Assembly (NCBI GenBank): GCA_017613855.1
Contig: JAGACY010000319.1
Coordinates: 1-13,156, forward strand
Direction of reading: 5' to 3'
DNA length: 13,156 nucleotides
From: Pseudomonadota bacterium
GTDB taxonomy: Bacteria; Myxococcota; Bradymonadia; UBA4248
Numbering within the stretch: position 1 is the first letter of the stretch; each line of letters begins with the position of its first letter. Under the pieces are notes generated by a model, which searched no databases, was not told where the DNA came from, and was given only the letters and a program-made list of their open reading frames with translations. This document shows, piece after piece, positions 751-13,156 of this stretch. The position numbers were made by a program, and so were the translations under genes.

Positions 751-3700
751 ATGATCGCACCCACATTACTCGTTGGCCTTGGCGGCATTGGTTCTAAGAT
801 TGTCTCGAAAGTGGCGAATCGCGTGCGCGAGGAAATCGACGAATCACTCCAGAATCGCATTGCGTATGCGGTTTTTGATACCGATATCAATGAACTCCAG
901 GAGATACATCTCAAGAATTCCCGGATTACGCCCATCCAGACTTCGACTAAGCTGACAGTAGGCGAGTACCTGAATCTCGATGCCCATGCACGCGATGGTT
1001 GGTTCCCGGTCAATCCGATTTTGAACAGCAAAACCCTGACCGAAGGTGCCGGACAGGTGCGTGCGATCTCACGACTCGCTTTTGAAACTGCCGTTCGTGC
1101 CGGAGAGATGGAAGCACTGCACCAGACCATCGAATCGCTCTATAAACTCGAACAGAACCAGGCCGAACAAGCATTGCGCATCGTTGTCGCAAGCTCGCTT
1201 TGCGGCGGTACGGGGTCGGGGCTCATTTTGCCGGTTGCACTCTATATTCGTAACTTTCTGAGCACGCGATTCCGTCAAAGTGCGAATATCATGCGCGGCT
1301 TTTTCCTGATGCCCGAAATCCTTTACCACGTCATACCAGGTGAGGTCGAACGGAACAATCTGCGATGCAATGCATACGCTACCATTCGCGAGCTCGATGC
1401 CTTCTTAATGAAGGGCGACGGCACGCTTCCTGCGCAGTTTGATGGTACCTTTAGCCTCGAATTTCCGCGTCCGGGTTCAAATGAGTACGACGAATACAAC
1501 GTACGCCCGTACGATTTCTGCTTCCTGTTTGACGCACAGAATACCCAGGGACGTAAACTCAACAGCTATGGTCAATATCTCGAACACGCTGCCAACTGCA
1601 TCTATGCACAGTCGATTGGCCCGATGAACAAGCGAAGCAATTCGAGCGAAGACAACACGATCCGAGAATTGTGCGCTGAACGCGGCCGCAATCGTTATGC
1701 AGGCGCTGGCAGTTCCAGCATCGTTTATCCGATTAAAGATGTTGAAAAATATATTGCTCTTAATTGGACAAAACAATGTGTCTCAGAGTCATGGTTACAG
1801 TTCGATAAAACCTTTTTCCAAAAAGGTAACAATAAAGACGAAAACAGAAACAGAACAAAAGATTATTGTCTTTCCGTTACATCAAAGGCTGAATCGAACA
1901 ATTTATTGGCAAAATATATTATTGAACAATGCACCATTTTAGCGAAGGATCCTGGCAAAAAAACAAAATCTAAATGGGTATCCTATATCGATGCACTCAA
2001 AGCCGTTTGCGAAAAACATTGGCCTGATGATAAGATTAGAAAAGAAATTGAAAGTAAATCAGACATCGTCAATCAGGAAGGCACACCGAATGACAGTGAT
2101 ATCCAGGATAGTATGAATTCACTGGTCAGTCAGTACAATTTACTCAAAAAGTCTCTTGAGGAAACCACAAAAAGTTGGACGAGGGGCCTTTTTGATCAAA
2201 GACAGTTTAATGAGCAGGATAAAGAAATTCCTGACCATTCCATTCAAAAATATATCAAAAATGATGGAAAAACCATCCATCCCAACGCGATTCGCTTCTT
2301 TATCAGCATGGCATCACTGGAAATTCACGAGAAAGCTCAAAATGTGAGCCGTGAACTTGATAAGCTTAAAGAAGATATAGATGGCTCTGTTGGTGATGGT
2401 CTGAAAGAGGCTGGCAAGAAAAAAGGCGATAGCGTTTTGAATAGTCTCACAGGCAAGGCGGGGAACTTAGAGGACAAAGAAGGGGCTACGAATTGGATAA
2501 CCCAGTTCAAAGAAGATATTATTAAATATAAAAATCTGTTTTTACAGAAAGCTGTTTTCGAATATGCGGAAACAGATTTGTCCAACATTCGTGATTCAAT
2601 CGAAGCATTTTATGATTCACTCCAGGAAGGCATTCAGGATGTGGATAAGGAGCTCCGTATTATTTCAAAGAAATTCATGCCGTATCCGGGGCGCACGACG
2701 CGCTATGTTTGTGCCACAAAAGAAATGCTCGAAAAAATGGTTCAGGCAAATCCCTATACAGGAAATGCCAATGCTGTAGATCCGGAGCTGTCACTGAATA
2801 TACTAAACAAAGTATTTGAATTCGCCGATTTGAAAGCCAATGAGCCGGAAAAACGTGTTGGGTTCTTCAGAAGTATGTTTACTGACCAGATCGTCGGTCA
2901 CTTTATTAAAGAACTCAAAGAAGCGCATTCATCCAAAATCTATATGAATGTCATCGACGCCATTGAACGCGAAATCGAGTTGAGTAAAAAAGAAGCGGAT
3001 CCGAACAGAATCGATCAGGCCGTGACCGATATCATTAATGACACACGCAAACTGGCTGCTCCGTTTATCGAATCACCACTTGGCGAGCATCGTCCGCCGG
3101 TTGCAGCCTGTTCTTACCATCCATCGCTCGACCCGGGTGACGATTCGCCGCGTTCTGCGCTTATTGGCAAGGTCCTCAACAATTACGGTGCCGTTCCCGA
3201 TGACGATATTCCACCCGAAATGATATTGTTCTATCAATCGGTGTATGGTCTGCGCGCCAATATTCTCTCTAAATTCGCTCCGTCCAAGAAGCTTCTGGCC
3301 AGCAACGAAATTCGCGATGCCGGCGAATATTACAAAGCTTATTTTGATATCACGAATCAGATCGTGCCCAAAACAAGCAAAACTCCGGTCATTACGCCGC
3401 ATATCGATAAAACCTGGCATATCATCAATGTTATGCCCGATCTCGACGAAACGAGCCAGAAGAATCAGGAAGACCGCATTTACAGAGCATTTTTATATGC
3501 ATGGCTGTATAAATATATTCGTTACGAAAAATATTATCAGAACAAGATCTATGCGCTGAGCCTGAAAGGGTCCAAATCTGAGGAATTTGTCGTTTCGAAT
3601 AAAACACCGTGCGATCGTTATTATGAAGTACTCGACGCGCTCATTATCAATCCTGTCGTCGTGGGTAATATTCTGAAATCGGTCGAAGAAAGAATTAACA

Positions 3701-4185
3701 AGGAGCTCAACCGCACGTGCAATCTCAAATTTGAGAGTAGCGAGCTGATGCAGCGCCTGAATTCACTCACGATTCAAGGGGCCGATACCAGCGAGGAAGA
3801 TAAGCCGAAAGATGCCGAAGAATGTACACTTTTCGATTTGGCGGTTCTCCTCAAACAGTCCACGCCTCCCTCGGAATTCCGTACTGAAGTCGGTTGCGAT
3901 ATGCTTGTTTCGATGTTCCGCGCGATGCTCGATTATATCAAACGCATCACGGCTCCGATGGAAGTTCCTAATGTTTTCGGCGATTTCGTCAACAAACAAT
4001 ACGAGAAGTTTAAAGCCAACTGCAGCCGATACGCGCGTTTTGGATTCAATCATTATTTCTGGGAACTCATTCGTTCGGTCGTCGATTTGCTTCAGAGCGA
4101 AGAGTTTGCAGAGACAGGCCTTTATGAGGCCGGTGAACGCATTGATGAGGATTTCAGCGATTTTTCGGATCATCTCCTCTCTTGA
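751..4185 (+). CDS. Tubulin/FtsZ-like domain protein (Tubulin_2 type), 1144 aa
   Basis: The N-terminus carries a GLGGIGS nucleotide-binding loop at residues 9-15, and CGGTGSG at 151-157 is the tubulin/FtsZ T4 phosphate-binding signature. A MPE segment (187-189) and NAYATIREL (207-215) follow, where FtsZ relatives contact the nucleotide. The head probably spans residues 1-330. The rest, to 1144, is mostly charged and helical and has no fold I can name. Residues 331-630 come from markedly AT-richer DNA and look like a variable insertion; after about 640 the composition returns to normal. The length is far above FtsZ (about 400) but fits large bacterial Tubulin_2 proteins. There is no membrane helix, so it is probably a cytosolic GTP-binding, possibly filament-forming protein. 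Neighbouring genes on both sides encode membrane proteins, suggesting it acts at the membrane. The ATG at 751 follows AGGAG at 741-745 with good spacing. The tubulin-like call is firm; polymerisation and GTPase activity are inferred. Confidence 0.88.
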   Translation: MIAPTLLVGLGGIGSKIVSKVANRVREEIDESLQNRIAYAVFDTDINELQEIHLKNSRITPIQTSTKLTVGEYLNLDAHARDGWFPVNPILNSKTLTEGAGQVRAISRLAFETAVRAGEMEALHQTIESLYKLEQNQAEQALRIVVASSLCGGTGSGLILPVALYIRNFLSTRFRQSANIMRGFFLMPEILYHVIPGEVERNNLRCNAYATIRELDAFLMKGDGTLPAQFDGTFSLEFPRPGSNEYDEYNVRPYDFCFLFDAQNTQGRKLNSYGQYLEHAANCIYAQSIGPMNKRSNSSEDNTIRELCAERGRNRYAGAGSSSIVYPIKDVEKYIALNWTKQCVSESWLQFDKTFFQKGNNKDENRNRTKDYCLSVTSKAESNNLLAKYIIEQCTILAKDPGKKTKSKWVSYIDALKAVCEKHWPDDKIRKEIESKSDIVNQEGTPNDSDIQDSMNSLVSQYNLLKKSLEETTKSWTRGLFDQRQFNEQDKEIPDHSIQKYIKNDGKTIHPNAIRFFISMASLEIHEKAQNVSRELDKLKEDIDGSVGDGLKEAGKKKGDSVLNSLTGKAGNLEDKEGATNWITQFKEDIIKYKNLFLQKAVFEYAETDLSNIRDSIEAFYDSLQEGIQDVDKELRIISKKFMPYPGRTTRYVCATKEMLEKMVQANPYTGNANAVDPELSLNILNKVFEFADLKANEPEKRVGFFRSMFTDQIVGHFIKELKEAHSSKIYMNVIDAIEREIELSKKEADPNRIDQAVTDIINDTRKLAAPFIESPLGEHRPPVAACSYHPSLDPGDDSPRSALIGKVLNNYGAVPDDDIPPEMILFYQSVYGLRANILSKFAPSKKLLASNEIRDAGEYYKAYFDITNQIVPKTSKTPVITPHIDKTWHIINVMPDLDETSQKNQEDRIYRAFLYAWLYKYIRYEKYYQNKIYALSLKGSKSEEFVVSNKTPCDRYYEVLDALIINPVVVGNILKSVEERINKELNRTCNLKFESSELMQRLNSLTIQGADTSEEDKPKDAEECTLFDLAVLLKQSTPPSEFRTEVGCDMLVSMFRAMLDYIKRITAPMEVPNVFGDFVNKQYEKFKANCSRYARFGFNHYFWELIRSVVDLLQSEEFAETGLYEAGERIDEDFSDFSDHLLS

Positions 4186-4195
4186 TATATTTGGC

Positions 4196-4346
4196 AGAGG
4201 GGGCAGCCGCCCCCTGCGCGTCTATGGGCGCGGCGTATCGAGCGCATGCGAGATAGACGCGCCGCGGGCGCGTATTGAGCGAAAGCGAAATAGCGCCGCA
4301 CCCATACGACGCTACCCCCACTGCGGGGCTGCGCCCCGCAACGCCC
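4196..4346. repeat. GC-rich structured intergenic repeat element (REP/MITE-like)
   Basis: This stretch between the tubulin-like gene and the next gene is about 71% GC over 4201-4350 by hand count, against roughly 45-50% in the conserved parts of the genes. It contains nested symmetry. There is a 7-bp hairpin at 4198-4204/4209-4215 with loop AGCC. A perfect 10-bp inverted repeat lies at 4216-4225/4253-4262. Arms at 4223-4235 and 4294-4306 match in 12 of 13 positions. An 8-bp hairpin occurs at 4322-4329/4333-4340 with loop TGC. There is also an imperfect 24-bp direct repeat (20 of 24 identical) at 4233-4256 and 4270-4293. The arms overlap, so alternative folds would compete. No transposase and no T-run follow. 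It most resembles a dispersed extragenic palindromic element or a small non-autonomous mobile element. A structured RNA regulator in the operon is the alternative. The class is inference; the symmetry and composition are directly visible. Confidence 0.65.
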
Positions 4347-4431
4347 CTCAGTCTTTCAGAAAACACCAGGTTTTGTCCCGCGATAGCATCATCCTTGAGG
4401 AACTTTTTCTCATTCGATAAGGCAGATCAGT

Positions 4432-7038
4432 TTGTTTACCGTTGTTTTTTCCAGCGTACACTCTAGTCAATGGCGCAAAGACTACGATTTCCTGTTTCAA
4501 CCACTGCGCGAGACAGGGGAACTCTGTTTTTGCGATTGGTATGATGACGAGGACAAGAAAACCATCGAGGAAGCTGTCCCCGGACTGTACGGGATCATCA
4601 AAGGAAAAAAAGAATGGCGCGCTATCATACTGAACCTGGATTCGCTGAAGCTCTATCCGCCGGAACAGGCAGATCCTTCGGAGGTTGAGATGTCCTCCGG
4701 GACGGCTGCGTCTTCGGGGGCGCAAACTGCTTTGCATGCTGACACGCCGGAGACATCATCTCCCGCAGATCATGACAAAGAGGGTGCCGCTGCTGCCGAC
4801 AGCAAATCAGAGGCACCACAAAATGCTGTAGCCTCATCCGAGATATTTTGCCCAAAATCGCAGAATCCTTTTGATTATTCCGAAAGCGACAAAGACCCGG
4901 ATCCCCATCAGAGCCGGGTCCCTATTATCCGACTCGCTCACATGCTGGCTGGATATGAGTTCACGGATATTCAAGGATTTGAGCCTGTTTTTGAATATTT
5001 CGACAGCGAACTTGATAAGAAATGCGTCATTACCGAAAAATCGCTCGACGCCTTTTATGCGATACAGAAGCATTTCGATGAAGTGCGCTTTATGGCACAG
5101 CTTCCCGATGCAAATGGAGCTGAGCTGCCCAAAACAGCAGATGAGGCAGATATCGAAATATTCGATGCCGCCACAAAATCATTTTTGACGGCAAAAGATG
5201 ATTCCATCCCCGTTCTGACCGATTCATCGTTCGATTCTTTTATCTGCCGCGCCGTTCGCCGCAATTCTCCTCAACAGAATAAAAACTTCGAACGCAAGCC
5301 GGATGAAATCGAACTCGTTTATGCCCCTTGTGCGGACAATGACGAAGAGGATGTCGAAACGATTCGTCTTTCTCTGTCGGAATTTCGGAGGATTGGCAAT
5401 GTCCTGCACCGCGAGGAGCATTTGACTCCGGTTTACCGCACGATTCATGCCGACGATGCTATTCTTGAGAAGCAGGATCGGCTCAAGAAATCCTATCAGT
5501 TTGCTGACAAACGTCCGACGGAACTGCTGCTCTTTGCCACGCGTCATATCGCCGAAGTGGATGAGAAGAAGAGCATTTGCAATGCCTGGAATCGTGTCAC
5601 GCACATTGAGCCGGCGCTTTTCTGGCAAACCAACCACTATCCGACATGCTGCCGTTTTCTGTATATGGATATCATGAGCCAGGATCGCATCCGATTCAAA
5701 CAGGATTTGATTCAGTTCTGGCTGGCAGTCCTTCTTTTGGCTCATAACAACCTCGAATCCGGCGTTCTCAAGGCATACAACCTTTACCGCATTCACCTCG
5801 ATATCGACGAGACTGAATTCTTTTACGCGCTCAACCGTCAGCTCAATACGCTCGAAGCAGCCTACAACGTTGTACAAACCGAACTTCAGTTCAAGCCGGA
5901 ATCTTCGTTTGCTCCCGATGAAAATCTGCTCGACAATGAAACGGTGACGATCAATTTCGTCAATGACAAAGCTGCCGAAATGCTTCACTCAAGAGAGATA
6001 GAATACTACAGTGAAGGCGATCGCAGGCTGGAACAGAAAAGACGCGAAGAAGAGAATCAGAAAATCAGCGATGAGAAGCAGAAATCCCTCAAGGTGAGCA
6101 ACAAACAGCGAGAACTCGATCGGGCCGTCAGCAATATCCGCATGCGCGCTTATAGTTTCCTGCCAAAGCATTATGTGCTCGATGAATACCAGACCATAGA
6201 ACTTCAAAAGAAGAAAATGGCCCTGGAACGCAGTCTTATAAAGAGTGGTTCACATTCTCCCGAAGTATTTGAAGCCACACAGAAACAAGAGCAGGAAGAG
6301 CAGGAAAAGATTATTAAGGGTGCCCATGAAAAATTAGAGACCCAAAAAGCCACACTTATGAATCGCGATGTCATCAAATATGCGGGCATTGTTGCCGCAT
6401 GCATCGTCGTTCTGGGCAATGGGACATATATTATACAATCCGCAGTCCATTCGGATACCGCATGGAGCAATTTCAGTGCGTTGGGAGCATCGCTGCTTGT
6501 GACGTTATTCATCATTGTGTGTGGTGCAGCCTGTGCGCTTTTTATGATTCGGCGTAACCATGCTGATCTCAAACGCGCCGTGGATGCGCATGAACGGACA
6601 ATACAGGATTTGAACAAACGTGAGCATATACACGAACAGGTTCACGGAGATTTCTATTCAGATTTGCTGACTTACTTTAAACTGCAGGCGATATATCGGG
6701 GTATTCATAATCGCAAAGAAGATGATATCGATTCGCGCAAACAATTGATTGGTTATTCGAGTGCGATCAAGGATGCCATGCGGCGGGATGAACACTGGCT
6801 CAATCTGTATGGGTTTGAACGCATTCCGGTCAAATTGTTATACACGGATGGTTTTTCCGAAAAGCCGAACAAAAATCCTATTTTTTATTTCGAATCCGAT
6901 AACGGGGAATATACCGTGTCATTGAATAAAACCACCGAGCTTTTGTCCGTCTATCGTATTATTAAGCAGATTACTATCGAACGCGATTATCTTCAGGACG
7001 ATGAATCCGAGGATGTCATGGATGATAACAGGGGGTAA
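4432..7038 (+). CDS. Coiled-coil protein with a two-helix membrane hairpin, 868 aa, unknown function
   Basis: I do not recognise a named family. Residues 1-75 look like a compact alpha/beta domain. Residues 80-137 are a low-complexity Ala/Ser/Glu/Asp linker. A mixed domain follows, and residues about 395-500 are a helical segment. Highly charged helices (about 520-570 and 590-645, runs of Glu/Lys/Gln/Arg) are probable coiled coils. Two membrane helices follow (about 648-669 and 682-706), joined by a short polar loop. Basic residues flank the pair (Lys649, Arg707-708), so both large parts should be cytoplasmic. The final 160 residues form a charged C-terminal domain. The start is TTG: an in-frame TGA at 4396-4398 blocks extension upstream, and the next ATG (4690) would delete the N-terminal domain. 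A weak AAGG (4419-4422) precedes it. The stop lies 3 bases before the next gene's ATG. A membrane adaptor or scaffold for the tubulin-like protein is my inference from context. Confidence 0.8.
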   Translation: MFTVVFSSVHSSQWRKDYDFLFQPLRETGELCFCDWYDDEDKKTIEEAVPGLYGIIKGKKEWRAIILNLDSLKLYPPEQADPSEVEMSSGTAASSGAQTALHADTPETSSPADHDKEGAAAADSKSEAPQNAVASSEIFCPKSQNPFDYSESDKDPDPHQSRVPIIRLAHMLAGYEFTDIQGFEPVFEYFDSELDKKCVITEKSLDAFYAIQKHFDEVRFMAQLPDANGAELPKTADEADIEIFDAATKSFLTAKDDSIPVLTDSSFDSFICRAVRRNSPQQNKNFERKPDEIELVYAPCADNDEEDVETIRLSLSEFRRIGNVLHREEHLTPVYRTIHADDAILEKQDRLKKSYQFADKRPTELLLFATRHIAEVDEKKSICNAWNRVTHIEPALFWQTNHYPTCCRFLYMDIMSQDRIRFKQDLIQFWLAVLLLAHNNLESGVLKAYNLYRIHLDIDETEFFYALNRQLNTLEAAYNVVQTELQFKPESSFAPDENLLDNETVTINFVNDKAAEMLHSREIEYYSEGDRRLEQKRREEENQKISDEKQKSLKVSNKQRELDRAVSNIRMRAYSFLPKHYVLDEYQTIELQKKKMALERSLIKSGSHSPEVFEATQKQEQEEQEKIIKGAHEKLETQKATLMNRDVIKYAGIVAACIVVLGNGTYIIQSAVHSDTAWSNFSALGASLLVTLFIIVCGAACALFMIRRNHADLKRAVDAHERTIQDLNKREHIHEQVHGDFYSDLLTYFKLQAIYRGIHNRKEDDIDSRKQLIGYSSAIKDAMRRDEHWLNLYGFERIPVKLLYTDGFSEKPNKNPIFYFESDNGEYTVSLNKTTELLSVYRIIKQITIERDYLQDDESEDVMDDNRG

Positions 7039-7041
7039 TGA

Positions 7042-10000
7042 ATGGAAGGCTTGACGGTATTCGAACAGATTAAACTGTTTGTATTTCTGATTCCGTTTAT
7101 ACTTTTGTGCATTGCCTGCTATAAACTGGCGCTTCCTCACAAAAGACGCGGAAGACAGGTTCTCATGCCGGTTTTGGCGATTTTACTGTCGATCTATGCC
7201 ATTTTTAAGATTCAGCAATTTACTTCTGAACTTCACGCTTATTTAGAATATGTTTTCAGCCTTATAGACCATCCCGAACAAGCTTTGCCCGAGAATCAGG
7301 CCGTCAATGAAGCCGTCAATCAATTGATAGACGGTGCCGTTGGTTCTTCCGGCGGCGGCAATGAAGTTTCCGAGGCCATAAAAAAACAGTTCGCAGATAT
7401 AGAAATTCCCCCTTCCGTTCGTTCGAACCTTGCGCGCCTGCGTTCCTTTTTGGGCGATGCTTTCGACCTGAATCTGCTCATAGCCTATATCGTCAATTTT
7501 GCGGCGATAATGGCTTTTATGATTATAAAAGGCATCCTGCTGCCCATTCTGAGCCGTGTCTGGTCGAATGACGAACTCATGAAATTGACTGCATCACGCT
7601 GGTATGATTTTCATGAGCTTCCTCCCGGCTATTACAAAAGACATGAGAATGCAAACAAAGATAAGGGGCAAAAGGACGCTAAAAATAATTCTAACGCTAA
7701 AAATAATTCTAAAAAGAAGAACAAAAAGGAGGCCGATAATGACGATGAGCTGAGTGGCTGGTTTGTCAAACCGCAGACGACGAGCTACCATAAATTGCTT
7801 TTGGCTGCTTACGTCGGGGTATTCGTAGCGGTCTCTCTTGTATTTCTCGTTTCGGTATTCCATCCCGATTGGGCTTTCTTCAAGGCATCCTTTTATCCAG
7901 TCTTTATCATTATTGTCTTTGGCGAAGTCGTTGCATTTTTAGATGGTTTGGTTTTCGTCGAAGAGCCTGTAGAGATAAAAGTAGAAGAGCCCAAAAGAGA
8001 GATTCGCGATCCGAAGTATCGCAAGATATGGGAAGAGTTTCGCAACATCTATCCCGACAATATATTGAGAAGAACGCCCGATATACTCGAAGACACCTGT
8101 CTTCCGGATCCTCCTGTTATCGACAAAGACCTCAGCTTTTTAACTCAGTCGGATGATGAAAACCTTAAGACCGTCGCCATGCTGTTTGAGCATCTCGATG
8201 ATCAGGAGTTTGAACCGAGTTATGTCGAGGGGTGTCTGCGCCTTTTGCAAGGCAAGAGTACTCTCTTTTGCAATCCTTTTTATGAGGACCTTGACAGATA
8301 TCTTTTCCCTCCCATTATCTACAATTTGCTGTCCTATAAAAAATGTCTCTTTATTATGGGACGCGATTCGACTGCGGAAGATTTTTGCGCTTGGCTGAAA
8401 AAAGGCATTAAAGATTTTGTAGGTGCAGATGGACTCTGGCAGACCGAAATCATATCCGAAGCTCCAATCAATTTTGATTTGGGCATATTAAAATTCAGCG
8501 ATATCTATAATCTCAAAGTTCTCAATACCCATCGCGAATTTTTCTCGGAAGTTCGTTTTGTATTTATTCTCGAACCATCTAAAATTCTTGCCACCGGGCA
8601 GTTGGCACTGAGTCTGATCATCAATCAGTTAGCACTCGACCAGTGTGATGCGATAACCTATTGTGCGTGTGATCACAACTGTGACGGCCTCGTCGACTGT
8701 CTCTCGCATGCGCTCAAGACGAGCATGACCCATGTGATTGCCACACTTCCGGGCAATGGTTCGAATCTGCAGGTATTCTGGGATGCCGACAGCCAGAATA
8801 TGCAGTATAAAATTCTCGATAATGTCACGCACTACCTCGGTATTGGTACCGAAATCAGCCTGATCGGCATGCGCTATGGTGTTTGCAATTCGGGGGCTGC
8901 TTGGGGCAACGACATTGCACATCAGAACGAATGTTGGTTCTCTTGTGATAAATTCCCCATCATGGATATGATGTGGATTGCGGGGCAGTATTACAATCAG
9001 ATATGCCAATATATCAGAAAGCCCATTGGTCAGGAGCAGTTCAACAAGGCGCTCGAAGTCCGAGCCAATATCTGGCATTGTCCCAAGGCCGAAAGCACTT
9101 ATCTCATTGTCGAAGATGAATACAATAACCTCTTCGAAATGTCGCGCATCTTCTCATCGCGTTCACTCAAGGAAGGGTTTATCAATGTCATCAGCGGCCA
9201 TTATTTGCTCCGCGATTACATGATTGAATATATCGATCTGTTCCAGAGCGATGCCAAGGCCATCCCGACGGTGGTGCCCGATTATGCCCGGACAGAACGC
9301 AATGTCATCTTAAAACTCCTGATGATGATGACAGCGCGGCCGCTTTCTGAAGATTTTGTGCGTCAGGAGCTGCGCCAGGCGGGATTGATTGAAACGGTTA
9401 AAGCAGACCTGGACACCAACAGACTGAAGAATAAGGCAAAGAAATCCAATGAACTGTTCCAAAAGTTTAATAAGAAGATCGAAGAGCATCTGTTAATCCC
9501 ACCAGAAGACAATGGTCTGACGCTCGATATCAAAGAAAAGACCTCGGATGATGGATTTACCGTCGAAAAAGAGTATTTCTATATCATCAAACCGGGCGAT
9601 AATCCGATCAACTGTTATCTGAAAAACCTGACCAATGCCTACTTCATTTCCGAAGATGAAGCGGAGAATAAACACTTTATCAGCGCCAAATTGTATGGCC
9701 ATGTGCTGCAGAGTTATTTGCCCGGACAGTTTATTACTCTGGACGGCAAGTATTATCAGGTTATGTCAATTTCCGATAAAAACGGCATTACTCTGAGGCG
9801 TGCAGCAGATCATATCCATAAGCGTCTGTATTACCGACAGGTACGCGATATTCTGTTAAAAGAATGGGTTTTTGACGGTTCAATGGGGGCCTGTCAGCAT
9901 ATTACTTTTACATCCGGCATGCAGATGGAGATTGCACGCGGCTTTGCAAATTATGATGTCAAAGCGCCTGGCTATCTTGAGTGCGCACCGTATAATGATA

Positions 10001-12330
10001 TTAAACATGCACGTTATTTTGAACTCAATAAGATATATGATGATACTTTTGTCTATTCTGAACCCCTTGAACTGCGAGAATCTCCCTCGATACGTGCAAA
10101 AGTGATTACAAAAATTGAGGTAAAAATAGATGAGAATAAGAAAAAAATAGCCAACCAATTTTCAATTATTGACAGGTATCACGGATGGTACAAAACAGAA
10201 TATAAAGGACAGACGGGGTGGATATATCCAAAGAACGAGCTTGATCGTTCCTATTCCCACAAAACAGCGCTTCGCCTTCGTCTGCCCCAGATTGCCCGGA
10301 ATGTCATCGATTATAAACTGGAAGATATCGAAAACTGTGCACGTGCAGAAGCCGAGGCGGTCCAAAGGGAATGTGCTGCTGTCGATCAAAAGGCTGAAGA
10401 AGAAATTGCCAAAAAATCCCATGAGATTCGAAACAAAGAGAAGTTCGACCAGATACAGGATGATGCGTTTATCCAGGCAGACAATGCCAAAAAGATTATT
10501 CGTGAAAAGGCTGTTGCCAATCAGGCTGCCTGTCTTAAACTGCGCGATGCGTTAAAGAATTGCCAATTCAATGAAGAGCGTGAAGAACGCAGATTGGCAT
10601 CAGATCCCGTTCAAGCCACTAAGCCTCTGACTTCGGACGAACAGATTAAAAAGGATGAAGACTACTTAACGGAGGTCTTTTTAAGCCTGAATAAGCCGGA
10701 GATTATCGAAAGAGTTCGATTCACCCTATGCCTCATGCTCAGCGAAATCTTTAAGACAACCTATCCCGAAGCATGGCAATATATTAACGTCGTCACAGAA
10801 GTCGATCCCGAATTGCTTACCGGCAACCTCAAATATGCCAACTATCACCTTATAGATGAGTCCAAAACCAAACAGACAAAGGCTGAAAACGTCGAAGCTC
10901 AAGGCGATAATACAACGGTTGCAGCTGAGGTTAAACCGTCTCTACTTCAGGAACCCCAGTCGGTTGAGCGCGCAGTGGAACCGAAAGAAACGCTGTCTGA
11001 ATCTGCTGAAGCCACAATTGAAACGGATGCTGAACAAACGCCAGACGAGGCAGATGCTCATGCGGCGGCGATGGATCCTTCCATGGCTGCAGAAAAGGAT
11101 GCGCAATCGTCAGTCTCTTCTGAGGAGCTGAACAAAGCGCTTGCTGAATGGTCAACTGCTTCTGAAGAATCAACAGAACCGAACGTTTCCGATTTCGATC
11201 TGGGGTTGCTCGATAACATCGAATCAGCCCAAGCCGTAATCGATGCACAGGAAGACTCTGCCAATGCATCGGCGGATTCCGATGCTGCAGAAAATAAACC
11301 TCGCAAGTACAAGAGCGCAATCGAAGCTGTATTGGCACATCCGAATATACAGCTTGCCGATCTGTATGCCAAACTGCCTCCTGCCAATGGTAAGCTTAGA
11401 GAATTAAAAGTCTCTCCCACCGGTACATTGAATATCATGCAGGATGGACAGAAGGTTTTGATTTCGGATGAGAATGTAGACGAATTGCTGAAAGCGGCTA
11501 AACCGAAGGAACCTGGCACTATTGAACTTAAAATGGAGGACATGAATTCGTCTGATTCGTCCGGTTCAGAGCCCGATGCCACAGAGGGGGTGGCCTCGGA
11601 TAATCCTTCTGTAGCTAAAGATGTGGCTGGTTCGAAGTCTGTTGTGTCTTCTGAGCAGACGCAGACCGTTTCCTGTCCGGGAGAAAATGGCGTCGCCGAA
11701 GGTGCAGCAAATGCCGCATGTGAAGCCGACACGAGCAATGCGAATAGCAACCAGCAGGGATACATCTATGTTTTGGAAGACAGTGAAATCGACCTCGGGT
11801 TGACGGTTTCGGTCGAGCGCTATTTGGATAAATACTTAGAAATCATCTACGATGTACTTGTCTGGCATTCCCAGAAGATGAAAGCGGGACTTGAGCCCGC
11901 GCAAAATGCCGATTCGGCAACAGATTTTGAGATTAATCTCAATGTTGAGGACGATGTTCCCGACGCGACATCGGATGAGAAACCAAAGGGCTTGTTTGCC
12001 CGGTTCATAGAATGGCTCAAAAAACTCTTTGAATCGAAAAAGCCGGCTTCCGCGGAACAACCCCAGGACACGACTGATCCGGCAGACGTAATCCACGAAG
12101 ATAAACCGCTGCAAAAACCACTGCGCAATTATATCGATCAGTGTTTCCTCAAATACGGCGATACGAAATACGACAAAGCCCTGGCCATCAAGGAGACCAT
12201 CGCCTATCTCGGTTTGCTGGGGTACGATTCCAATCGTTTCGACAAGGCACGCTTTAAGGCGCAGGAAACCAGAAATAAAAAAGAAGCAGATGCAAAAGAA
12301 AAGTGCGGAGATGAGTCTTCCGGCAAATAA
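7042..12330 (+). CDS. Five-TM protein with degenerate Hrq1/YprA-like SF2 helicase scaffold and SH3b domain, 1762 aa
   Basis: Membrane helices lie at about 11-31, 39-58, 144-167, 252-273 and 281-300. Basic loops (32-38 and the Lys-rich 175-235) point to N-out and C-in, leaving about 1450 residues cytoplasmic. That region follows the order of Hrq1/YprA helicases. A Walker A-equivalent position at about 411-420 reads NPFYEDLDRY, a DEAH-equivalent at 508-513 reads FILEPS, and a motif III-equivalent lies at 540-545. A HYLLRDY/PLSED block spans 720-771, and PGQFITLDGKYYQV covers 894-907. C-terminal blocks lie at 1221-1255 and 1574-1612. None of the catalytic motifs is intact, so ATPase activity is unlikely. 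An SH3b domain (about 1002-1066, with GWYKTEY and GQTGWIYP) interrupts the scaffold. A charged helix (about 1085-1170) follows, and an acidic linker (about 1274-1572) interrupts it again. The last 140 residues include an amphipathic helix (1650-1664). The ATG follows AGGGGG at 7030-7035. The gene and membrane segments are firm and SH3b is likely; the helicase relationship is by-eye inference. Confidence 0.82.
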   Translation: MEGLTVFEQIKLFVFLIPFILLCIACYKLALPHKRRGRQVLMPVLAILLSIYAIFKIQQFTSELHAYLEYVFSLIDHPEQALPENQAVNEAVNQLIDGAVGSSGGGNEVSEAIKKQFADIEIPPSVRSNLARLRSFLGDAFDLNLLIAYIVNFAAIMAFMIIKGILLPILSRVWSNDELMKLTASRWYDFHELPPGYYKRHENANKDKGQKDAKNNSNAKNNSKKKNKKEADNDDELSGWFVKPQTTSYHKLLLAAYVGVFVAVSLVFLVSVFHPDWAFFKASFYPVFIIIVFGEVVAFLDGLVFVEEPVEIKVEEPKREIRDPKYRKIWEEFRNIYPDNILRRTPDILEDTCLPDPPVIDKDLSFLTQSDDENLKTVAMLFEHLDDQEFEPSYVEGCLRLLQGKSTLFCNPFYEDLDRYLFPPIIYNLLSYKKCLFIMGRDSTAEDFCAWLKKGIKDFVGADGLWQTEIISEAPINFDLGILKFSDIYNLKVLNTHREFFSEVRFVFILEPSKILATGQLALSLIINQLALDQCDAITYCACDHNCDGLVDCLSHALKTSMTHVIATLPGNGSNLQVFWDADSQNMQYKILDNVTHYLGIGTEISLIGMRYGVCNSGAAWGNDIAHQNECWFSCDKFPIMDMMWIAGQYYNQICQYIRKPIGQEQFNKALEVRANIWHCPKAESTYLIVEDEYNNLFEMSRIFSSRSLKEGFINVISGHYLLRDYMIEYIDLFQSDAKAIPTVVPDYARTERNVILKLLMMMTARPLSEDFVRQELRQAGLIETVKADLDTNRLKNKAKKSNELFQKFNKKIEEHLLIPPEDNGLTLDIKEKTSDDGFTVEKEYFYIIKPGDNPINCYLKNLTNAYFISEDEAENKHFISAKLYGHVLQSYLPGQFITLDGKYYQVMSISDKNGITLRRAADHIHKRLYYRQVRDILLKEWVFDGSMGACQHITFTSGMQMEIARGFANYDVKAPGYLECAPYNDIKHARYFELNKIYDDTFVYSEPLELRESPSIRAKVITKIEVKIDENKKKIANQFSIIDRYHGWYKTEYKGQTGWIYPKNELDRSYSHKTALRLRLPQIARNVIDYKLEDIENCARAEAEAVQRECAAVDQKAEEEIAKKSHEIRNKEKFDQIQDDAFIQADNAKKIIREKAVANQAACLKLRDALKNCQFNEEREERRLASDPVQATKPLTSDEQIKKDEDYLTEVFLSLNKPEIIERVRFTLCLMLSEIFKTTYPEAWQYINVVTEVDPELLTGNLKYANYHLIDESKTKQTKAENVEAQGDNTTVAAEVKPSLLQEPQSVERAVEPKETLSESAEATIETDAEQTPDEADAHAAAMDPSMAAEKDAQSSVSSEELNKALAEWSTASEESTEPNVSDFDLGLLDNIESAQAVIDAQEDSANASADSDAAENKPRKYKSAIEAVLAHPNIQLADLYAKLPPANGKLRELKVSPTGTLNIMQDGQKVLISDENVDELLKAAKPKEPGTIELKMEDMNSSDSSGSEPDATEGVASDNPSVAKDVAGSKSVVSSEQTQTVSCPGENGVAEGAANAACEADTSNANSNQQGYIYVLEDSEIDLGLTVSVERYLDKYLEIIYDVLVWHSQKMKAGLEPAQNADSATDFEINLNVEDDVPDATSDEKPKGLFARFIEWLKKLFESKKPASAEQPQDTTDPADVIHEDKPLQKPLRNYIDQCFLKYGDTKYDKALAIKETIAYLGLLGYDSNRFDKARFKAQETRNKKEADAKEKCGDESSGK
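7678..7713 (+). repeat. 18-bp tandem duplication in the Lys/Asn-rich loop of the five-TM protein
   Basis: Two adjacent 18-bp units (7678-7695 and 7696-7713) match in 17 of 18 positions and encode AKNNSN then AKNNSK. They lie in the basic cytoplasmic loop between membrane helices 3 and 4. The frame is kept, consistent with replication slippage in a disordered loop. Confidence 0.8.
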
Positions 12331-12651: not shown

Positions 12652-13156
12652 ATGAAGAAGAGGATTGCTTTATCATTGTCATGTTTAGTCGTTTTGGGAT
12701 TGTACGGGTGCAGTGACGATGATTCGGGGGCAAAGCAGGAAGAAAGCCCCAAATGCACGTTTGAAGCTCCTTATTGCGATAGTCAAATCCTGCATGTGTG
12801 TTCGAATGGCACAGAGACAACCGAGACCTGTGATGGCACATGCAACTCAAAGGAAGGCAAGTGTGAGGCAGGCGAAGACCCGGCCGATCATTCCTGCGAT
12901 GCTGGCAAGCACTATGATGAAACGCTCAATGAATGTGTAGACGACCCCGAAGTTCTGTCCTGCGATTCCGGCAAGCACTATGATGAAACGCTCAATGAAT
13001 GTGTAGATGATCCCGAAGTTCCGTCCTGCGATCCCGGCAAGCACTATGATGAAACGCTCAATGAATGTGTAGATGATCCCGAAGTTCCGTCCTGCGATCC
13101 CGGCAAACACTATGATGAAACGCTCGATGAATGTGTGGATGATCCCGAAGTTCCGT
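12652..13156 (+). CDS. Cys-rich lipoprotein with tandem 22-residue repeats (3' end outside window)
   Basis: The N-terminus is a lipoprotein signal peptide: MKKR, then a hydrophobic core, then LYGC with the lipidated cysteine at residue 20. Tyr at -2 is slightly unusual. Ser at +2 followed by Asp residues argues for outer-membrane or surface placement if E. coli sorting rules apply. Residues 35-71 form a small domain with six cysteines (35, 42, 50, 60, 64, 71), probably disulfide-bonded. From residue 81, four 22-residue repeats are visible, each with two cysteines, a GKHYDETL core and an acidic DDPEV tail. The array is still open at the right edge, so full length and C-terminal domain are unknown. 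GAGGT at 12640-12644 is 7 bases before the ATG. Such lipoproteins are typical of Myxococcota-like bacteria (my recollection). It is not obviously part of the tubulin-like block, because a likely terminator lies between. Function unknown; a surface adhesive or stalk role is possible. Confidence 0.85.
   Translation, partial: MKKRIALSLSCLVVLGLYGCSDDDSGAKQEESPKCTFEAPYCDSQILHVCSNGTETTETCDGTCNSKEGKCEAGEDPADHSCDAGKHYDETLNECVDDPEVLSCDSGKHYDETLNECVDDPEVPSCDPGKHYDETLNECVDDPEVPSCDPGKHYDETLDECVDDPEVP
12892..13155 (+). repeat. 66-bp tandem repeat array (four units visible)
   Basis: Units lie at 12892-12957, 12958-13023, 13024-13089 and 13090-13155, each encoding 22 residues with two cysteines. Units 2 and 3 differ at one base, units 3 and 4 at three, and units 1 and 2 at five. 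The near-identity at DNA level means recent duplication or ongoing homogenisation. Copy number probably varies between strains, and the array continues past the window edge. Confidence 0.95.

Follow-up and report, generated by a model that had tools for sequence, protein, structure and literature searches.

What is the large protein that is encoded downstream of a tubulin-like gene in a stretch of 13,156 nucleotides (nt) (contig JAGACY010000319.1 of assembly GCA_017613855.1, Pseudomonadota bacterium)? In this stretch, below referred to as the window, positions 7042–12330 of the forward strand, which also carries the three genes in front, contain a gene for a 1762–amino acid (aa) protein, delineated from the list of open reading frames (ORFs), an AlphaFold model, and structure matches. 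The original prediction concerned positions 8221–12000, i.e., residues 394 to 1653 of this ORF, and proposed that a protein with five transmembrane (TM) helices reproduces the scaffold of Hrq1/YprA helicases with all catalytic motifs lost. We call the protein the pseudo-helicase. Our favored answer, which we hold to be the probable one as a whole, is that a relative of the MrfA/YprA-type helicases has become anchored in the membrane and catalytically dead, and that it acts as a ligand-gated hinge or scaffold whose partners are a Tubulin_2 protein, a two-TM protein, and a protein of the vWA type. The components of this answer differ in strength. As judged from the structural models, we are nearly certain of the helicase-type fold; the protein is also very likely not a canonical ATPase; and the hinge/scaffold mechanism with a repurposed cleft would be a tentative proposal. 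Four points come directly from computation and are presented below: how the protein is predicted to fold, that its ATPase motifs are uniformly lost, in what order the genes stand, and that it diverges in parallel with the tubulin.

AlphaFold models were analyzed for residues 1 to 1200 of the window protein and for a homolog with 39% identity to it. When the models were compared to the Protein Data Bank (PDB) with Foldseek, MrfA/YprA was the top match for both the window model (E 2.5e-16) and the homolog model (E 3.3e-21), as expected from the original prediction. Each search covered 350,542 chains; MrfA chains took ranks 1 to 3 in one and 1 to 4 in the other, with E values between 3.3e-21 and 3.1e-10, and the alignments span 774 columns for the window model and 826 columns for the homolog model. 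Both models contain the two RecA-like domains that had been anticipated, arranged as in superfamily 2 (SF2); in the window model, the motif positions lie next to strands. The best match of the homolog model in BFVD was a phage SF2 helicase (E 5e-6). The predicted fold and domain order are thus shared with the SF2 helicases MrfA, YprA, and Hrq1 (DUF1998, MZB; PDB 6znp, 6znq, and 6zns): a strand before RecA1, RecA1, RecA2, a helical domain, and an OB/connector canopy.

In the window protein, these elements follow a membrane domain of five TM helices (residues 6 to 305; 7057–7956) that is detected by a hydropathy scan, with segments at 12–30, 39–57, 144–162, 252–270, and 287–305, and appears as helices in the AlphaFold model. 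Loops after TM1 and TM3 are basic, suggesting an N-out, C-in topology; the large C-terminal part would then be cytoplasmic. The RecA1-like domain covers residues ~363 to 567 (8128–8742), and the RecA2-like domain covers residues ~568 to 745 (8743–9276). Helices of the model at residues ~750 to 820 (9289–9501) would be the counterpart of the YprA helical domain. A beta-rich region resembling the MrfA OB/connector canopy by HHalign and Foldseek extends over residues ~826 to 985 (9517–9996) and includes the sequence LPGQF..GKYY (9718–9756).

Searches of Pfam, NCBIfam, and PDB sequences with the window protein returned no helicase match, and phmmer against PDB gave nothing under E 0.04. For profile comparisons, we used MrfA-type controls from 20 loci in relatives of genome G001 that were found via PF09369. 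A clean helicase frame was present in 19 of them; locus L074 was dropped, the selection strings being absent from its frame. Since loci were chosen by PF09369 and frames by DExH and GK[ST], only the QxxGRxGR motif serves as a free control. The canopy segment scored above 150 of 150 column-shuffled decoys in HHalign against the MrfA-type profile, though column shuffling produces lenient decoys and HHalign's own probability for this match was only 1.7%. The best RecA1 profile alignment to the controls runs from motif I to motif III in order; taken alone, neither the RecA1 nor the RecA2 segment matches the control profiles significantly. Sequence thus supports the putative relation to MrfA moderately in the canopy and weakly in RecA1. 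The relation appears in predicted structure and, moderately, in the canopy profile.

To follow the catalytic motifs across the family, we used two homolog searches that gave 288 and 188 matches at E ≤ 0.001; the best 120 of each make up 210 different proteins, including that of the window, and the counts below refer to these listed homologs. The Walker A (motif I) position is occupied by NPFYEDLD (N411 to D418; 8272–8295), with a strand at 407–409 before it and a helix starting at 414. The GKS at 404–406 precedes this strand and is not the P-loop. As had been claimed, the P-loop is missing: GK[ST] is found at its site in none of the homologs, and a TxSGK[ST]-type pattern occurs nowhere in any of them (19 of 19 controls, whose frames were chosen for GK[ST], have it). 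A looser [AG]xxxxGK[ST] string was encountered anywhere in 4 of 210 homologs and 1 of 19 controls. Position 417, which aligns with the Walker lysine, is Leu in 186 homologs and Lys or Arg in none, while D416 and Y420 are found in every homolog.

At the DExH (motif II) position, behind a strand at 504–510, the window protein has LEPS (L510 to S513; 8569–8580), which agrees with the EPS noted earlier. The place of the Walker B aspartate is taken by Ile, Val, or Leu in 203 homologs and by Met or Ala in 7, followed by Glu (209), Pro (210), and Ser (208). DExH is absent from this site in the homologs; DExH-like strings occur elsewhere in 12 and DEAD in 7 of them, compared to 19 of 19 controls, which were chosen for the motif. 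The SAT (motif III) position, behind a strand at 539–543, carries A542-C-D544 within CACDHNCDGLVDCLSH (residues 541 to 556; 8662–8709). SAT is present at this site in none of the 210 proteins, in line with the predicted replacement, and the string SAT is found anywhere in 107 of 210 homologs and 14 of 19 controls. The RecA2-like domain is devoid of QxxGRxGR, a motif that no homolog has versus 19 of 19 controls; the shorter GRxGR occurs in 2 of 210. The same domain contains E691, D692, E693, and N696, each present in 210 of 210. Last, the four-cysteine pattern CxC..CPxC of DUF1998/MZB was not seen in any homolog (19 of 19 controls, themselves picked by PF09369, have it), and the window protein has no MZB match. 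The place of the DUF1998 core is taken by the block IYVLEDSEIDLGL... (residues 1575 to 1629; 11764–11928), which lacks the four cysteines and, as read by eye, may correspond to LFLYDGxxGGxGL of MrfA-type proteins.

The loss of catalytic motifs proposed originally thus holds in that every motif is broken, with the reservation that the motif II glutamate, E511, is kept. The noncatalytic blocks named along with it are all at the residues given: HYLLRDY at 720–726, PLSED at 767–771, PGQFITLDGKYYQV at 894–907, and IYVLEDSEIDLGL at 1575–1587. As to whether motif loss is universal, the replacement is uniform in the 210 listed homologs, and no intermediate with intact motifs was found among them. Given the number of homologs and the invariant residues at motif positions, the pattern is not due to chance.

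The strongest conservation is seen at the residues that replace motif III. D544, N546, G549, L550, D552, and S555 are found in all 210 homologs, D548 in 209, and H556 in 208. No other 16-mer of the protein is as conserved as residues 543 to 558, and among windows of the core, the segment 541–556 belongs to the top 0.3% (top 11% for motif II). Plain decay would not make the motif III site the most conserved part of the protein, so the site was probably rebuilt. Here, 209 of 210 proteins have the pattern DxNxDGxVDxxS, which is similar to the EF-loop consensus and ends with a Ser (S555) at position 12 in all 210. A zinc site formed by C541, C543, C547, and H556 was also considered and rejected, the CCCH set being complete in only 144 of 210 homologs.

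The genes in front of the pseudo-helicase point to its partners. The window begins with the C-terminal end, containing one TM segment, of a vWA-type protein (3–680) whose vWA/MIDAS part lies outside the window. The MIDAS motif LVYDDSGSM is present in copies at the vWA place in relatives (six of six loci); Pfam support is weak, with VWA_2 at E 0.037 in one of two copies scanned and no match in the other. Next come a 1144-aa Tubulin_2 (FtsZl1) protein (751–4185; PF13809, E 1e-60) with CGGTGSG at residue 151 and an 868-aa protein (4432–7038) whose two TM segments lie around residues 650 and 678. The latter has relatives at the same place, in which two TM segments were detected in four of five copies scanned and one in locus L012. 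The start codon of the pseudo-helicase is located 3 bases past the stop codon of the preceding gene. The order vWA, Tubulin_2, two-TM protein, pseudo-helicase is the same in all five loci that span it (the window, L001, L011, L012, and L013). Loci L014 and L015 show the pseudo-helicase core, or part of it, only because their contigs begin or end there.

Of 189 related genomes, 6 have the core and 52 have Tubulin_2; both are present in 5 of the 6 (Fisher p 0.006). In genome G002, the core is at a contig start and there is no Tubulin_2 match. In six more distant Tubulin_2 loci (L051 to L056), no ORF matches the core (best E 1.2; 0.62 over all eight loci). In the close Tubulin_2 loci L050 and L057, the contig ends inside the tubulin gene. 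L055 and L056 are GC-rich, and their tubulin itself was missed by ORF picking; therefore, absence of the core there rests on the genome search. When the 210 listed core proteins were compared with the 120 listed tubulins, 18 pairs had exactly equal longest contigs, with 0.55 expected from near misses, a comparison that matches them by size. One of these pairs is named, IJA55_00835 and IJA55_00845 from a Clostridia genome, and leaves space for one gene in between. Distances between core proteins follow those between tubulins (r 0.878 over 23 pairs; 0 of 5000 permutations reach it), although such a correlation cannot tell partnership from a shared species tree. Source names of homologs include Clostridia, Oscillospiraceae, Peptococcaceae, and Treponema, as well as Proteobacteria bacterium and Myxococcales bacterium UBA4248. 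We consider it highly likely that the pseudo-helicase is a partner of this Tubulin_2 clade.

How might such a protein work? Behind five TM helices, RecA1, RecA2, the helical domain, and the OB/connector canopy would face the cytoplasm, and the two RecA lobes would still form a clamp. The old ATP cleft would hold an acidic, EF-loop–like site made of D416, E511, D544, N546, D548, and D552, which would bind a metal or a small ligand rather than drive ATP hydrolysis. The protein might then serve as a hinge or scaffold, gated by the ligand, through which a tubulin-like polymer is held to both the membrane and the vWA protein. In a further version, which is possible but doubtful, the protein would convert signals across the membrane: its dead RecA clamp would sense the metal or small ligand at the motif III replacement and, by opening or closing, control the tubulin-like polymer beneath the membrane. 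Other lineages would add exchangeable enzyme domains, a subtilase on the outside and a transglutaminase-like domain on the inside.

Several findings weigh against the hinge/scaffold reading, in addition to the limits of the canopy profile and of the distance correlation given above, and they are best considered together with the alternatives to which they lend weight. The overall root mean square deviation of the MrfA matches is high, ~8 to 11 Å. In VIA-align, MrfA fits the RecA lobes no better than generic DEAD-box helicases do, or less well: it ranks 27th for the window model and is missing from the best 50 of the homolog model. The RecA1 profile match to MrfA is nonsignificant, with 21 of 150 decoys scoring as high. 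The link to MrfA therefore rests on the whole-length Foldseek match and the canopy. One could argue that the protein is a generic two-RecA arrangement of another lineage and its likeness to MrfA a coincidence of fold, but the Foldseek ranks of MrfA and a canopy profile that beats every decoy make this very unlikely. Conservation is only mild at the sites of motifs I, Ia, and Ib (top 17, 30, and 27% of windows, respectively). A Lys or Arg is found somewhere within residues 411 to 419 in 105 of 210 homologs, mostly at 415, two before the Walker-lysine position, and the motif II glutamate E511 as well as R750 and R753 are still there, which leaves room for an unusual NTPase. An enzyme acting on NTPs or phosphate compounds through new cleft residues (D416, E511, D544 to D552, and E691 to E693) would explain why the acidic residues of the old cleft are invariant or nearly so. 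We nevertheless regard it as quite unlikely: the Walker-lysine position never carries a basic residue, the Walker B aspartate is replaced by hydrophobic residues, QxxGRxGR is gone, and the protein has no NTPase family match in Pfam or NCBIfam. The proposed ligand is also affected, since EF-loop position 12, usually acidic, is a serine (S555) and the loop's closest sequence match in PDB is nonsignificant (E 1.2), although that match has DxDxDG-like loops; there is no Pfam match to the loop piece. Calcium binding is thus only a lead.

The main rival of the hinge/scaffold reading, an unlikely one in our estimate, is a membrane-bound nucleic acid sensor or anchor. Here, the ATPase would be gone and the RecA groove with the canopy would hold single-stranded nucleic acid, for example, tying DNA or RNA to tubulin-like filaments. 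Putative binding by the canopy is consistent with its profile similarity to MrfA and with the nearly invariant basic residues K903, R919, R920, H924, R928, R932, and R935. The motif Ib region, moreover, aligns in order with TNPDML of MrfA-type proteins, its aspartate D487 being present in 189 of 210 homologs. Against this, motif Ia reads by eye as GR[DH]S and is not PTxAL-like, and the partners in the window have no match to nucleic acid enzymes in Pfam or NCBIfam. Less probable again than a new NTPase is an effector platform of a conflict or defense system, in which the core regulates and exchanged subtilase, transglutaminase-like, or DUF6055-like domains are the effectors. Such domains do occur in the family: protein P0037 has Cu_amine_oxidN1, subtilase, and Big_2 ahead of its membrane part, other homologs have a C-terminal Transglut_core or a weak DUF6055-like match, and a profile built on the C-terminal part of the family finds a solved transglutaminase-like chain (9crn_A; E 1.5e-26). 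The window protein, however, was found to contain no subtilase, transglutaminase-like, DUF6055-like, or zinc-peptidase–like part. PADLOC (2023 library) assigned no family to three window proteins and homolog P0026, and no relative was found in viral contigs (query A2) or plasmids (query P0036).

Compared to known systems, the pseudo-helicase differs from MrfA-type proteins by the five TM helices in front, by the absence of ATPase motifs and the four cysteines, by the inserted SH3 domain and linker that the window protein carries, and by its place in a tubulin operon rather than among repair or defense genes. Utp25 functions in ribosome assembly in yeast and is not known to have a membrane part. 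In the accessible portion of one report, it is a helicase-like protein termed a pseudohelicase (PMC9539457). The available text of a 2025 YprA survey describes repair and defense clades, including DISARM, Druantia, Dpd, ARMADA, BRIGADE, and TALON, with the four cysteines lost in Dpd (PMC12458937). The proteins surveyed there share the OB-CON-DUF1998 canopy and are described as helicases, mostly in defense systems; the words tubulin, transmembrane, and vWA never occur in its main text. For FtsZl1, the accessible part of Makarova and Koonin (2010; PMC2875224) describes the tubulin family, vWA neighbors, and unnamed associated families A1 to A2 and B1 to B9. Those operons have the tubulin family (PF13809), a vWA neighbor, and membrane proteins in common with the window, FtsZl1 being equated with Tubulin_2 by us and not by that paper. 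No helicase-like protein is named among FtsZl1 operon partners in that part of the text, and the pseudo-helicase may be one of the unnamed families. In the literature searched, which did not cover subscription papers, the pseudo-helicase is nowhere described, including the accessible text of the FtsZl1 papers PMC2875224 and PMC5898192.

We class the pseudo-helicase not as a helicase but as a membrane-bound, catalytically inactive member of a known fold family, which suggests that an old motor fold was reused as a membrane switch or scaffold. The motor cleft seems to have been rebuilt, not merely lost. A helicase family that the cited sources present as motors of DNA repair and defense thereby gains a dead branch bound to the membrane. 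With a fold, a topology, and invariant residues assigned to its constant partner, the FtsZl1/Tubulin_2 system becomes testable.

The remaining parts of the window protein are rarely shared. A bacterial SH3_3 domain is inserted at residues 1009 to 1062 (10066–10227); it matches PF08239 with 31.1 bits (cutoff 27) when a 72-aa piece is scanned alone and is subthreshold in the whole protein (23.4 bits). It sits in the canopy region, and its columns are occupied in at most 5 of 210 homologs. An insert of long, coiled-coil–like helices predicted by AlphaFold follows at residues 1086 to 1186 (10297–10599), with columns 1100 to 1190 occupied in at most 9 of 210. The acidic low-complexity linker covers residues ~1270 to 1570 (10849–11751), and its columns 1280 to 1560 are occupied in ~11 of 210 on average.

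As to the domains exchanged in the family, the fusion to subtilase and Ig-like domains in P0037 and proteins with the same domains suggests an outer enzyme coupled to an inner dead helicase. The C-terminal consensus of alignment A1 contains a CxxC region followed by HELTHIWQY and may perhaps have the look of a zinc peptidase. Active MrfA-type proteins, as judged by MZB, are matched in 126 of the 189 related genomes; four of the six core genomes (G001, G002, G004, and G005) have no such match, which may reflect incompleteness.

Two repeats were observed elsewhere in the window. The spacer between the Tubulin_2 and two-TM genes (4186–4431) contains a GC-rich, strongly folding repeat (z −3.9) that has no Rfam match and gives 40 to 49 matches in each of four related genomes. 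Its copy in L001 has a 25-base insert with a self-complementary stretch, and the repeat looks like an interspersed palindromic element. At 12892–13156, a 66-base tandem repeat (four copies, 95% match) runs past the window edge. It lies in the gene of a predicted lipoprotein, where it codes for units resembling SCDPGKHYDETLNECVDDPEVP, and has a longer relative in L001.
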